The position numbers and the translations under genes are program-made. A stretch of DNA of 42,754 bases from assembly GCA_029210815.1 (NCBI GenBank), contig JARGGB010000022.1, positions 1 to 42,754 on the forward strand, in the 5' to 3' direction. This stretch comes from Candidatus Brevefilum sp. (lineage in GTDB: Bacteria > Chloroflexota > Anaerolineae > Anaerolineales > Anaerolineaceae). The notes below the pieces were generated by a model that worked only from the letters and a program-made list of their open reading frames with translations, had not been told where the DNA came from and did not search any database. Each line of letters starts with the position of its first letter. The stretch's first letter is position 1. Below, in pieces: positions 18,254-35,820 of the stretch.

Positions 18254-18889
18254 CTAAACAAAGGACAACCAGTAAGCAGCAATACCAAAAGCAACCCCCA
18301 CATTGAGAGAGCCTTTCCCGCCCATCATTGGAATTGCCAATACCTGTTCACATAGATCCATGATCCCGGGATCAACCCCGGCTTTCTCGTTACCAACCAC
18401 CAAGGCCAGAACGCGTTGATCTGCTCGATCAGGGTGAAAATTAAAGATGGGAGTAGATGATACCGTCCTCTCCAGGGCGATCAATTGCAGACCTTCCGAT
18501 TTGCGGTCTTCAACCAAATTCAAGGCGTTGGGATGATACTCCCAGGGGACATGATCCTCTGCACCCAGAGCCGTTTTCTCTAATCCTGCCTCGTTTCCAG
18601 GCGTGGGGGTGATCCCACACAGGAATAATTTTTTAATGCCAGCGCCGTCTGCAGTCCGAAAAATTGCCCCAACATTATAAGCACTGCGTAAATTATCCAG
18701 AATAACGACCATCTCGCGCTTCGGTTGAGTGCTTGTTCCTGGTGAGCCCATAAAACCTAATGGGTCAGTAACAAATTCCATGGGTTCGCCGCATACTGGA
18801 CAAAATTTTCCGCTGTACTGATTCAGATCAATGGGCATGCGTAAATTACAGACAGTATTGACGCATTGCATGAATTTAAAATTTGGCAT
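18254..18889 (-). CDS. TrmH-family (SpoU) RNA 2'-O-methyltransferase with N-terminal zinc-finger-like segment
   Basis: This is a 211-residue SPOUT methyltransferase that uses S-adenosylmethionine to methylate a ribose 2'-hydroxyl in RNA. The knot motifs are visible: NLRSAYNVGAIFRTADGAG (motif 1), ALVVGNEKAGVDP (motif 2) and MMGGKGSLNVGVAFGIAAY (motif 3). Before the catalytic domain, residues 9-33 hold C9, C14, C30 and C33, a possible zinc site not seen in standard TrmH; the usual N-terminal substrate-binding domain is absent. It is divergent from the dehydrogenase remnant. The RNA target is unknown. Confidence 0.85.
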   Translation of the reverse strand: MPNFKFMQCVNTVCNLRMPIDLNQYSGKFCPVCGEPMEFVTDPLGFMGSPGTSTQPKREMVVILDNLRSAYNVGAIFRTADGAGIKKLFLCGITPTPGNEAGLEKTALGAEDHVPWEYHPNALNLVEDRKSEGLQLIALERTVSSTPIFNFHPDRADQRVLALVVGNEKAGVDPGIMDLCEQVLAIPMMGGKGSLNVGVAFGIAAYWLSFV

Positions 18890-19396
18890 TGCTCACTCCA
18901 ACAAGCTGTTCGCAAAAACAGAAGCGTCTTTATTTTATCGCTTTTTGGAATTATCCTGGTGAAAAGACTTGTTTAACAAATTTGCCTATTAAAGCGCCAA
19001 ACGCCTGGGTGAGGGGGGCACCCAGACGTTTGACGATATAAAATATATCACAACCATAAATGTTTAGCAAGAGTTTTTATTTATTAATTTTACATTAGAG
19101 TTTTCTGAATATTCTGCTTCTGAAAGCTGAAAAATATTAACTCAATGCATTAAAAAAACCGCAAATCGTCAATTTTTATGTAACCTATTCCCAAATTATC
19201 AATCTAAAAATAAAAGCAAAATAATTTGAATCACACATTCTTGCCAGTATGATTAATTAAAGGATAAAAACCACAATAATTGTCTGTGTTATGAGCAATA
19301 ATACACTCCCTTTGAACACCCCTGGGCTCATAAGCAACCATGAATTATCGAACGATAAATAAATAAAAGTAATAAATAAGCTTCGGGAGGTAAGAT
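18890..19396 (+). other. 507-base AT-rich divergent intergenic region with inverted repeats
   Basis: No ORF is convincing here. The region contains a 13-base stem with one mismatch (18999-19011 against 19019-19031) around a G-rich loop; an 8-base inverted repeat, TTATGAGC (19289-19296) with GCTCATAA (19326-19333); and the palindrome TTATCG-AA-CGATAA (19345-19358). The last two lie just before the GGGAGG ribosome site of the dehydrogenase remnant and could be operators. No clear -35/-10 pair was found. Confidence 0.5.
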
Positions 19397-19813
19397 ATGT
19401 CGCTCTCTAATGAGAAAAAGAAGGAAATGTTCTGGATTATGCTGTTGTCCAGGCGCCTGGACGAACGCGCCTGGGTGCTGCATCGCCAGGGAAAGATTGC
19501 TTTTCACATTTCCGGTATTGGACAGGAGGCTGCCCAGGTCGGCGCCGTCTATGCCATTGAAAAAGGAAAAGACTGGCTGGTTCCCTACTACCGCGATCTT
19601 TCAATGATGATAGCGATGGGAATGAGCCCAGCAGAATTTGTGATGAGCCTGATGGGCAAAGCACAGGAACCAACCTCTGGTGCCCGGCAGATGCCAAGCC
19701 ATTTCAGTTTAAGGCGTGCTAACATTGTCAGCCATTCAGCCCCGGTTGCAACGCAATCACCGCATGCTTCTGGCATCGGTTTGGGGATCAAAATGGATGG
19801 CGGTGATGATCCA
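19397..19813 (+). pseudogene. 2-oxo acid dehydrogenase E1 alpha subunit, truncated N-terminal fragment
   Basis: The first ~139 codons encode an E1 alpha subunit of the pyruvate/branched-chain 2-oxo acid dehydrogenase type: residues such as LDERAWVLHRQGKIAFHISG, QEAAQVGAVYAI, PYYRDLSMMIAMGMSPAEF, SGARQMPSHFSL and VSHSAPVATQ are characteristic. A full subunit has ~320-360 residues; here homology stops at about 19805-19813, before the GDG thiamine-diphosphate motif. The frame then runs 44 nonsense codons to a stop at 19945. GGGAGG lies seven bases before the ATG at 19397, so the fragment is probably still translated. It cannot be an active decarboxylase. See the E2 remnant and the findings. Confidence 0.88.
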
Positions 19814-19958
19814 AAAGCGACCAGTCGTTGTCAACGACGCGATCGCCATCAAACCAATGGTTTACCTGAGCTACACTTTCGATCACCGGATCCTGGATGG
19901 CGCTTCAGCGGATACATTCCTGGCGCATGTCGTGGACACCCTTGAAAACTGGCAATAA
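19806..19958 (+). pseudogene. 2-oxo acid dehydrogenase E2 acyltransferase, C-terminal remnant
   Basis: In a different reading frame from the E1 alpha fragment, the last ~50 codons of a dihydrolipoyl acyltransferase remain: IQKRPVVVNDAIAIKPMVYL, then SYTFDHRILDGASAD with the catalytic HRxxDG motif, and FLAHVVDTLENWQ at the end. The lipoyl domain, the E3-binding domain and most of the catalytic domain are missing. The remnant has no start codon of its own. It directly follows the E1 alpha fragment, so roughly the E1 alpha C-terminal half, the entire E1 beta gene and most of E2 are absent. Confidence 0.87.
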
Positions 19959-20072
19959 AGATAAATTACATCACATTAAGCTTATTAACTTCGGTATAAT
20001 GGATGAAGCTGTGTGAATTGACTGATGACAAAACTGAACTAAAGAAACTTAGATTGAAAGGAATTCCATCCT

Positions 20073-21470
20073 ATGAAAGAATATGATGTCGTTGTTATTG
20101 GCGCTGGTCCGGGAGGATATGTATCTGCGATTCGCAGTGCCCAGCTTGGTTTGAAAACTGCGATTGTTGAAAAACGTTTCCTTGGCGGTGTTTGTTTGAA
20201 TATTGGCTGCATTCCGTCCAAAGCCTTACTAAAGAATGCGGATGTTGCCCATACTTTGCGAGAGCAAGGTAAAGAATTTGGCTTCAGCTTTGATAATCTT
20301 GAGCTCGATTATAGTGTTGCTTTCAAGCGAAGCCGCAAAGTTTCAGATCGGTTGACACGCGGCGTCGGGTTCTTAATGAAAAAACACAATATCGACGTTC
20401 ATATGGGTGCTGCAAAGCTAACTGCTAAGGATACTGTCGAAGTCACGCCTGATGAAGGCGATGTGGAAACACTGAAAGCCAAGGATATTATCATTGCGAC
20501 AGGCTCCCATCCCTTCATTATTCCTGGTATTGAACTGGACGGTGAGAAAATCGTCGATTATGAAGCTGCCATCATGCGGGATACCTTACCGGAATCAGTC
20601 GTGATCATTGGCGGTGGGGCCATTGGCGTGGAATTTGCCACCGTTTGGAACGCCTATGGGGTTGATGTATCCATTGTTGAAATGCTGGACCACCTCTTAC
20701 CGCTGGAAGATGAAGCCGTCAGCAAAGAAATTGAGAAGGCTTACAAGAAACGCGGCATCAAGGTGATGACCAAATCCAAAGTTAAATCAGTCGAGGCCAC
20801 TGACAAAGGGACCAAGGTAACTGTAGAAACCGAAGATGGCGAAGAAGTGATCGAAGCTGAAACGACCATGGTGGCAATTGGTTTCAAACCCAATACCAAG
20901 GGTCTGGGTCTGGAAGACGTCGGTGTGAAATTGACCGAGAGGGGTCATATCGACATTGATGACCGCATGTCGACCAATGTTGACGGCATCTGGGCGATTG
21001 GTGATGTCACTGGCAAACTGCTTCTTGCGCATGTTGCACAGGCGATGGGCGTGGTCGCTGCTGAGAATATCGCCGGGGTCGAAACCGTTACCCTCGATTA
21101 TGATATGATGCCCCGTGCGACCTACTGCCATCCGCAAGCAGCCTCCTTTGGTTATACGGAAGAACAGGCAAAGGAAAAAGGCTATGATGTCGCTGTGGGT
21201 GAATTCCCATTCCAGGCAAATGGTAAAGCCCTCGGTTTGGGCGACTACCAGGGTTTTGTCAAAGTCATCAGCGATAAGAAATATGGCGAGATTCTCGGTG
21301 CGCAAATGGTCGGACCGGATGTTTCAGAACTCTTACCGGAATTGACCCTGGCGCAGCGTTTTGAATTGACAACCCATGAAATTGGTCGCAACGTGCACGC
21401 GCATCCCACCCTGACAGAAGCGATCATGGAAGCCGCTGAGGGTGCACTGGATAAATCCATTCACATATAA
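20073..21470 (+). CDS. lpdA: Dihydrolipoyl dehydrogenase (E3)
   Basis: E3 reoxidises dihydrolipoamide with NAD+ via FAD and a disulfide. The 465-residue product is complete: FAD motif [14 protein letters not shown] (7-20), redox pair C41/C46 in [16 protein letters not shown] motif [14 protein letters not shown] (near 180), [16 protein letters not shown], and the catalytic [13 protein letters not shown] at the C-terminus. AAAGGA precedes the ATG at a normal distance. A TATAAT at 19995-20000 could give it a separate promoter. With E1/E2 broken it may serve another complex (glycine cleavage or another 2-oxo acid dehydrogenase). Confidence 0.96.
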
Positions 21471-33243: not shown

Positions 33244-35820
33244 CTACACCACCCTCAACTGGGAGCCCTGCGGGGTTTTTTCAACTTCAATTCGGTTGGG
33301 AAAGACATCCTTCAACTCCTCAAGATGCGTGATCACCAAGATCTTTTCAAAATCATCCCGTACCATGTTGATTGCCTCCACCAATCGCTGCCGACCCTGC
33401 GCATCCTGACTGCCAAAACCCTCGTCAATCACCAGGGTCTGCAGGCGAGCCCCAGCCCGACGCGCCAGCACCTGCGAAAGCGCCAATCGAATCGAGAAAT
33501 TCACCCGGAAAGCTTCACCACCCGAGAACATCTCATAATCGCGCTCTCCGAGGCTGTCGCTGATGATGATATCAAGGGTTTCCCTCAGGTCCTCCCGGCT
33601 GGCGTCCTTATACTCCCGCTGGGTCACAAAACTAAAAGACATTTGGCCGTTGGTCAGGCGTGACAGCAGGTCATTGGTTTCCTCTTCAATCTCCGGCAAG
33701 GCTTGTTCAATCAATAATGCCGGCACACCGTCCTTGCCAAAAGCCCTTTCCAGCTGCTTCAAATTTGCAATTAGCTGGGTCAATCCTTCACGTTCCTCAA
33801 CAAAGCCAGCCTTGCGTGCCTTCAGGGTTTCCAAAACAGCGACCTTCTGCCTGGCACCGCCCACCTCCATCCGCAGGCGATTCTCCTGCTCCTGGATATC
33901 ATGCAAATCCGATTCTGCCTTCACCAGGTCAGGCATGTCCACCTCTGCAGCTGCCAGATGGGCAACCGCCTCATCATGGGTCACCTGCAAGCTTTCCAAA
34001 TCTTTGTCTTGTTCTTCAAGCTGTGCCTGCAGTCCCTCAATCTCACGTTTGATCGGCGCCAGGGCTGCTCGGGCACCTTCTAACCCGCGCAGATCAGCCT
34101 CTGCCTCTCGGCCTGTCTGCTCTGCTTCCCGCAAGGATTGGTGGGCTTCAATATCATAACCAAGGGCTTCCAGCTCGCCGTCAATTTCCTTCAATCGCGT
34201 TCGCGCTGCCTCAGCAAAAGATTCCCCGGCGATTGCCGTCCTGATTTCCGTCAAACGCGGTGCGCCAATTTCCCGCCACGCTTTTTCTTCTTCTTCCAGG
34301 TGTTTGAGCCGATTTTCTAATTGATCTGCTGTCCTTGTTGCCTCTCGCAGTTCAACTTCAACCCCCTTCAGGTCTGCCAGCTCAGCACCCATCTCCTGCA
34401 AACGACCCTCAAATCCTTTCAGCAGTTTTTGGTTCTCACGATAACGGTCACCCCTTTTTTCACCATCTTCTGTTAAAGATTGGATCAGCGCCTCCCGCTC
34501 CTCAGCGGACAGCGGCTGGCCGCAAAGGGGACAATCCACGCCGTGCGCAGCTTTTAGTTGATCGATGCGTTCTCGAAGTTCCTTCATCTCCGCGTACAAT
34601 CGGGGGTTTTCTGCCTTTGCATCAGCATGCTTCACCTGAAGCTGACGGATTTCGTCATCCAATGCTTCCCGACGTTTGAGCCGCGCCTTTGCATTTTCAG
34701 CCTTTTCCCGAGTTTCACTTAATCGCGTCTTCAGGTTCTCCGCTTCCGTCCGTGCTTTTTCCAGTGCGGTTTGTTTCTCTTCCAGGCTTTGCATTTCCTG
34801 GCTCAGCCGCGCCTGTTCTGCCCTTATCAGGCTCAAGGGTTCGTGTCGGAGCGCTTCATGTTTACGAAATTGTTCCGCCAAAACCTCCATCGCTTCCAAT
34901 GCCTGGCGCGCTTTTTGCCAATCATCGTAAGCCTTTTCAATTTGATCGCCTTTAGCAATGATGGCGTCATATTCCTGTTTCTCGGTATGCCGTGCTTCCA
35001 GGGTTTGCGCCGTTCGCTCGCGTTTCTGCGCTGCTGCATCAAGCTGTGTTCGTAAGGCAGTCACCATCTTGCGCTGTTCATCGAGAGCAGCCTGCAAGCG
35101 GCGGATATTTTCCAGGGCTTGTGCACGCTCTTTCCGCTGCTGCGAAAGATTCTCTAACCGCGCTTCCAGTTCCGCTAACCTTTCCTTTCGCTGCGGTCCC
35201 TCATCCAATTCCGCCTGGATCTCGCTGATGCGCCCTTCTAAAGCTTTGACTTCTTTTTCTTTTTCACGCCGACGCAAAGCCGCTGTCTCCCGATAGGTCT
35301 CCCACACTTCCAGGCCTAAAATGTTGCTCAGAATGCGTTTTCGCTCCCCGGGACGTGCCATTGCAAATTGATCTGCCTTACCCTGCAGGAAAAAAGAAGC
35401 ATTGGTAAAAGTTTCAAAATCCATCCGGAGGGTGTCTTCAATCTTTTTATCTGTCTCACGCAGGGTGCGTTCTGTTAAAGGCTTCCATCGAGTGTCCTCC
35501 CCCGGAATTTGAGATAGGATAAAAAACTCCACAGAAGAAGTTTTGCCGCGCGGATTCGCCCGTTGAACACGGTAGCGATTGCCCTCGTAATCAAAATCAA
35601 AGGTCACCTGCGCCGCCTCAACAGATGGATGATTATTGATCACCGATTCATCACGCTTACGCGCTTGCCCAAACAATGCCCATGTGATGGCATCTAGCAA
35701 AGCGGACTTACCTGCCCCATTCTGACCTGAAATACAAGCCAGGTTGAAACCAGTAAAATCCAATTCCACCGGGTCACGATAGGAAAGAAAACCTTCGATT
35801 TTCAGTTTTATGGGGATCAT
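33244..35820 (-). CDS. Rad50/SbcC-like SMC-family ATPase
   Basis: This 858-residue ATPase has the Rad50/SbcC layout. An N-terminal ATPase half carries Walker A SGQNGAGKS (31-39) and the Q-loop region FFLQGKADQFAMARPGERK. Two long coiled coils (about 180-415 and 445-700) are joined by a zinc hook CPLC (430-433). The C-terminal half has signature FSGGE (765-769), Walker B LVIDEGFGSQD and VITHLEE. Usually it pairs with the Mre11/SbcD nuclease to process DNA ends, but no such gene is adjacent. It is the last gene of a tight operon with NurA, a HAS-barrel protein and HerA; its start is one base after the herA stop. Confidence 0.92.
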   Translation of the reverse strand: MIPIKLKIEGFLSYRDPVELDFTGFNLACISGQNGAGKSALLDAITWALFGQARKRDESVINNHPSVEAAQVTFDFDYEGNRYRVQRANPRGKTSSVEFFILSQIPGEDTRWKPLTERTLRETDKKIEDTLRMDFETFTNASFFLQGKADQFAMARPGERKRILSNILGLEVWETYRETAALRRREKEKEVKALEGRISEIQAELDEGPQRKERLAELEARLENLSQQRKERAQALENIRRLQAALDEQRKMVTALRTQLDAAAQKRERTAQTLEARHTEKQEYDAIIAKGDQIEKAYDDWQKARQALEAMEVLAEQFRKHEALRHEPLSLIRAEQARLSQEMQSLEEKQTALEKARTEAENLKTRLSETREKAENAKARLKRREALDDEIRQLQVKHADAKAENPRLYAEMKELRERIDQLKAAHGVDCPLCGQPLSAEEREALIQSLTEDGEKRGDRYRENQKLLKGFEGRLQEMGAELADLKGVEVELREATRTADQLENRLKHLEEEEKAWREIGAPRLTEIRTAIAGESFAEAARTRLKEIDGELEALGYDIEAHQSLREAEQTGREAEADLRGLEGARAALAPIKREIEGLQAQLEEQDKDLESLQVTHDEAVAHLAAAEVDMPDLVKAESDLHDIQEQENRLRMEVGGARQKVAVLETLKARKAGFVEEREGLTQLIANLKQLERAFGKDGVPALLIEQALPEIEEETNDLLSRLTNGQMSFSFVTQREYKDASREDLRETLDIIISDSLGERDYEMFSGGEAFRVNFSIRLALSQVLARRAGARLQTLVIDEGFGSQDAQGRQRLVEAINMVRDDFEKILVITHLEELKDVFPNRIEVEKTPQGSQLRVV

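Follow-up and report, generated by a model that had tools for sequence, protein, structure and literature searches.

A probable deletion remnant of a PDH-type E1/E2 operon in Candidatus Brevefilum, with the E3 gene retained and the E1/E2 genes lost repeatedly in the genus

The window, the whole stretch of 42,754 nucleotides from Candidatus Brevefilum sp. analysed here, carries on its forward strand the beginning of an E1-alpha gene, the end of an E2 gene and an intact lpd gene. The E1-alpha head runs from 19397 to about 19804-19809 and comprises codons 1 to about 136 of about 327. Within the ORF at 19397-19945 (182 aa), PF00676 (E1_dh) matches residues 15-136 only (E 7.4e-22), covering positions 4-122 of the 300 in the domain, and the best model, TIGR03181 (PDH E1-alpha), aligns at positions 20-144 of 341 with 101.8 bits, below its cut-off of 411.35. 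The E2 tail lies at about 19809 to 19958 and ends with its native stop codon. The ORF that contains it (19716-19958, 80 aa) includes the DHRILDGA motif and matches PF00198 at residues 32-79 only (E 3.2e-13); the match spans positions 180-227 of 232, not the whole catalytic domain. The tail begins 412 bases past the E1-alpha start and is therefore in a different frame. Both partial matches are much too strong to be due to chance and, falling in two frames, they bear out the proposal of an earlier note that an E1-alpha head is joined out of frame to an E2 tail. The deletion junction is placed at 19805-19809 of the same strand, where at most 3-5 bases are common to both sides. An annotation relying on the E1-alpha fragment would falsely credit this genome with the complex.

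The lpd gene, encoding dihydrolipoyl dehydrogenase (E3), follows at 20073-21470 on the forward strand. As that note had also stated, it is intact: it scores 582 bits on TIGR01350 (cut-off 408.8) over positions 1-461 of 461. To the left of the remnant, a SpoU/TrmH-like methyltransferase gene, named from its translation, occupies 18254-18889 on the reverse strand and is the left neighbour at 15 of 16 loci in the genus; the remaining stretch, from G003, was fetched without it.

The closest intact relative, G012, shows what the window has lost. Its locus has the same left neighbour, followed by E1-alpha (327 aa), E1-beta (328 aa), E2 (433 aa) and lpd, and thus provides an intact orthologue at the same place; the E2 tail in the window corresponds to residues 385-433 of its E2. 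The window aligns with G012 in two collinear blocks, 18901-19809 (89.5% identical) and 19805-20100 (86.9%), which overlap by 5 bases. From the alignment coordinates, about 2,793 bases of G012 are missing from the window, within the 2.5-3 kb guessed earlier, and the SpoU-like gene and lpd are 1,183 bases apart in the window versus 3,978 in G012. The deletion extends from after the first two fifths of E1-alpha to before the last 49 codons of E2. Microhomology, suggested as the cause of the deletion, finds little support: the 5-base overlap contains one mismatch against G012 and shrinks to 3 bases against other relatives, which is too short to argue from.

In gene order, head, tail and E3 sequence, the window resembles a PDH-type E1-alpha/E1-beta/E2/E3 operon (TIGR03181/TIGR03182, PF00676, PF00198, TIGR01350), full orthologues of which are present in G012 and seven further members of the genus. 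Unlike that operon, the window has lost E1-beta entirely and the greater part of both E1-alpha and E2, and only E3 is intact. The substrate of the ancestral complex was likely pyruvate, judging from model scores. The E1-beta of G012 passes the PDH subfamily model NF006667 (339.1 versus 321), and its E1-alpha and E2 both fall under the equivalog cut-offs of PDH and related models (full E1-alpha 338.4 bits versus 411.35 for PDH E1-alpha).

We compared the same locus in a genus sample of 16 genomes, consisting of our own (G000) and 15 others, some of them named Brevefilum. An lpd of this type is present in all 16, although the copy in G001 is cut by a contig end. E1-alpha, E1-beta and E2 are full in eight genomes (G001, G002, G003, G004, G009, G011, G012 and G013), and 23 of the 24 frames in these sets are open end to end, the exception being the E2 of G001, which is broken at two N's marking an assembly gap. 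In the other eight, E1/E2 are collapsed or gone at a contiguous locus. Collapsed sets are found in G000, G006 and G008. What is left in G006 is E1-alpha 1-35, interrupted by a stop after 9 codons, and E2 335-432, with one extra residue within the DHR motif. G008 keeps E1-alpha 1-131 (gapped) and 302-323, E1-beta 1-36 and E2 410-431, that is, three separate pieces in addition to the head. No protein-level match to E1/E2 (E 0.01) was found at the locus in G005, G007, G010, G014 or G015; nucleotide-level traces are left of the E1-alpha start in G005 (about 60 bases) and of the E2 end in G007. In these five genomes the SpoU-like gene and lpd are joined by a short contiguous stretch (464-1,748 bases), so the absence of E1/E2 does not result from missing contigs.

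These data demonstrate recurrent loss, with three distinct breakpoint sets (G000, G006 and G008) in separate lineages. The losses occupy five positions in the trees, which were built from rpoB, lpd and the SpoU-like gene: G000/G007, G010, G008, G005/G006/G014 and G015. The count of about five assumes no regain; G004 and G015 contributed no rpoB, and three more genomes only part of it. IQ-TREE supports are 100 for G008 with the intact G009, 77 for G010 with the intact G013, 94 for G005/G006/G014 and 97 for the grouping of these three with the intact G004. G015 adjoins the outgroups with a support of 70 (IQ-TREE) or 0.97 (FastTree). The grouping of G000 with G007 receives 0.90 in the rpoB tree and 0.68 (FastTree) or 55 (IQ-TREE) in the concatenation, whereas the lpd tree instead pairs G000 with G012 (0.42). 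The trio G000/G007/G012 is thus poorly resolved, and the losses in G000 and G007 may represent one or two events. One shared deletion for all losses was rejected on the differing breakpoints and the trees. The loss genomes are also smaller by estimated size (mean 2.48 versus 3.02 Mb, 8 versus 8, exact Mann-Whitney p 0.028, from rounded sizes divided by completeness and uncorrected for kinship). The comparison with close relatives called for in the earlier note therefore returned a full set in half of the genomes and separate collapses in others, and the orthologous loci agree with its view that the E1-alpha/E1-beta/E2 block was deleted while E3 was kept.

The remnants in the window itself have not decayed. 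Along the G000 branch the head has accumulated 2 non-synonymous and 8 synonymous changes, compared with 5 and 9 along the branch of the intact G012; one further synonymous change is unassigned. Relaxed constraint is therefore not seen in the G000 remnants, as expected if the deletion is recent; by these counts, the head was still evolving like a functional gene until very recently. The undecayed state implies that the deletion is recent, or is a strain variant, or is an artefact. The last two alternatives, in which a chimeric assembly or a minor variant polymorphic in the population hides cells that carry the intact operon, would fit the lack of decay and the draft state of the assembly (2.66 Mb, 99 contigs). 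Against them, the deleted parts of E1-alpha, E1-beta and E2 were not found on other contigs of this 95.9% complete assembly, the same locus has collapsed separately and with other breakpoints in relatives, and the join shares only 3-5 bases, an overlap too short for a graph assembler to make the connection unaided. We therefore consider an artefact or variant unlikely, and misassembly, which had been left open, is disfavoured by the relatives' separate collapses at the same place. We infer that the organism itself, and not just its assembly, carries the deletion.

Two other readings are far less probable. The shortened frame might still make a useful product, either an E1-alpha head peptide or a frameshifted E1-alpha/E2 fusion, and the head frame is indeed open and looks constrained on its own branch. 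However, a recent deletion accounts for this constraint equally well, neither domain is complete, G006 has an early stop in its head and an altered DHR motif in its tail, and five relatives have no protein-level trace. A gain of E1/E2 by some species, to which the absence from half of the genus and from the fetched DNA at 10 of 16 outgroup lpd loci (some on short contigs) might point, is hardly compatible with the remnants in G000, G006 and G008 or with the orthologous operons outside the genus, contiguous in L085 and L088, which belong to other genera, and nearby in L094.

Taken together, we interpret the locus as a recent deletion remnant of a PDH-type E1-alpha/E1-beta/E2/E3 operon in which E3 stays, probably under its own promoter and probably shared with other enzymes; we put the probability of this reading at about 0.8. 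Under this model, the loss of about 2.79 kb would mean that this complex is no longer made from the locus, lpd would probably be read from a promoter of its own between E2 and lpd, and its E3 would probably serve other lipoyl enzymes, namely those of two E1/E2 operons and of glycine cleavage. E3 probably survives because E1/E2 sets without an adjacent E3 remain in the cell and because a promoter-like element lies beyond the deletions.

This element, TTCGGTATAAT (19990-20000, forward strand), is exact in 14 of the 16 genus genomes, with its TATAAT starting 75-85 bases upstream of the lpd ATG. The two exceptions, with a degenerate form, are the intact G003 and the loss genome G010; in the other seven of the eight loss genomes the element sits between the deletion and lpd. 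Over 183,836 bases of genus loci there are 14 occurrences of the 11-mer, always before lpd, where base composition predicts 0.11. Conservation in the rest of the spacer is low, and the 16 loci show no conserved -35 box beside the element. In the outgroup, 7 of 16 lpd loci have a TATAAT 45-61 bases upstream, without TTCGG. For lpd, four pairs of loss genomes give dN/dS values of 0.054-0.085, one intact pair gives 0.068 and two mixed pairs give 0.051 and 0.080; by these estimates, constraint on lpd is similar with or without adjacent E1/E2. A search for plasmid relatives of lpd gave no match.

Other 2-oxo acid routes are left in the cell. Apart from the remnant, our assembly contains three E1-alpha matches (contigs C3, C20 and C36; paralogues at 30-31% identity), three E1-beta matches (33-51% identity) and two E2 matches (C3 and C20). 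Relocation of the missing genes within the genome was rejected, as the assembly search returned only paralogues. The search for an intact E1/E2 set elsewhere, proposed earlier, thus had a divided outcome: the deleted parts are absent and paralogous sets are present on C3 and C20. The C3 set comprises E1-alpha, E1-beta and E2, its E1-alpha scoring 442.2 bits on TIGR03182 (cut-off 393.85), and lies in an operon of PPDK-like, E1-alpha, E1-beta, E2 and lipase-like ORFs, the outer two named by eye; C20 carries a further E1/E2 operon. No lpd was found beside either operon on the stretches read. GcvH is encoded on C11, and C8 encodes a second lipoamide dehydrogenase-like protein (407.4 bits, just under the cut-off of 408.8) that could, on this likeness, serve the lipoyl complexes too. 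A C3-type E2 is present in 14 of 15 classified genomes and in 7 of the 8 loss genomes (30 of 46 E2 matches classified); G007, which is 71% complete, has no E2 match, and neither of the two loci listed for G003 is C3-type. POR_N matches occur in 15 of the 16 genus genomes, and the frame that holds the match in G000 is 1,242 aa long, a length from which we assign it to the single-chain PFOR type. With the C3 set, the C20 set and a PFOR-type enzyme remaining, a complete loss of this kind of activity, as the earlier note might suggest, is not supported.

The passages available from a study of Brevefilum fermentans describe the conversion of pyruvate to acetyl-CoA via PFOR, PDH or pyruvate formate lyase (PMC5481317). 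Redundancy of this kind would account for the dispensability of one PDH-type set; these passages list the routes, whereas the loss of an E1/E2 set is not described in them.

The gene loss at the locus looks real but fairly ordinary. It can be set beside ordinary lineage-specific losses that leave E3 to other lipoyl complexes, and our case is alike in that E3 is retained and constrained while its partners go. It differs in that the loss is repeated at one locus in one genus and that a conserved promoter-like element lies between the deletions and lpd. Members of this genus of fermenters have repeatedly discarded one enzyme complex yet kept its E3 subunit, and the intact, half-broken and empty loci form a defined set for testing why the complex is lost.

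Two side observations concern other genes. A further cluster on C36 of our own assembly (L066, 2945-5946, reverse strand) encodes E1-alpha, E1-beta and a lipoyl-type domain joined to a NeuD-like sugar acetyltransferase (TIGR03570, 180.9 bits, cut-off 160.8). No E2 catalytic domain was found on C36, and the cluster is perhaps an acyl-transfer complex acting on sugars. Downstream of lpd, the window contains a block from 21805 to about 33240 that starts with lipoprotein- and ABC-transporter-like ORFs and is followed by an 858-aa ORF (33244-35820, reverse strand). G012 has an ORF of equal length about 0.5 kb from lpd, and about 11.8 kb seems to differ between these close relatives, as judged from unaligned ORF lengths.

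Upstream of the remnant, a palindrome at 18994-19035 on the reverse strand could form a hairpin RNA with a 16 bp stem and a CCCCCCU loop. The palindrome has been kept, as the earlier note observed, and is present in all eight loss genomes, but it is not an element of the operon: it is a hairpin on the opposite strand that recurs at other loci of the family. Its core (at most 2 mismatches) was found in 95 of 121 family genomes, and the reversed control had zero among the matches listed. Genomes of Anaerolineales in which it was found carry 1-5 copies, and the loci with copies include L295, L307 and L310. We aligned 27 of the 49 distinct copies: 97.7% of cells are paired, both sides vary at 12 of the 16 pairs, and covariation scores 0.672 versus 0.225 for shuffled alignments (0 of 500). 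The nearest downstream ORF faces the hairpin in 20 of 39 places (simple ORF calls, at least 80 aa), which makes a separate short RNA more likely than a leader. Under strict filters, the hairpin model matched 11 of 199 genomes in the class (our own, nine of one other family and one weak) and 28 of 301 in the phylum (6 of our own family, 17 of family f12, 1 of family f2 and 4 weak).

Rfam gave no match at the window copy, and on seven further hairpin loci only sub-gathering matches to unrelated families touch the element (RF00512 in L246; RF01796 and RF01822 in L310). The portions of the literature consulted, including parts of PMC2864571, PMC5481317 and PMC12306157, contain no description of the hairpin or of this E1/E2 loss, which is not proof of absence. 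Two elements would outlast the collapses: TTCGGTATAAT, letting E3 escape each deletion, and an independent hairpin representing an undescribed Anaerolineales small RNA family, whose C-rich loop may, at a guess, pair with G-rich ribosome-binding sites. We hold the odds of this combined proposal to be about even. By eye, a promoter-like CTTG ... TAT-A-T pattern often lies upstream of the hairpin. On the reverse strand of L287 (genome G109), three copies stand in tandem at 2363, 2527 and 2698 (spacings of 164 and 171 bases), and every copy has a promoter-like box of its own.
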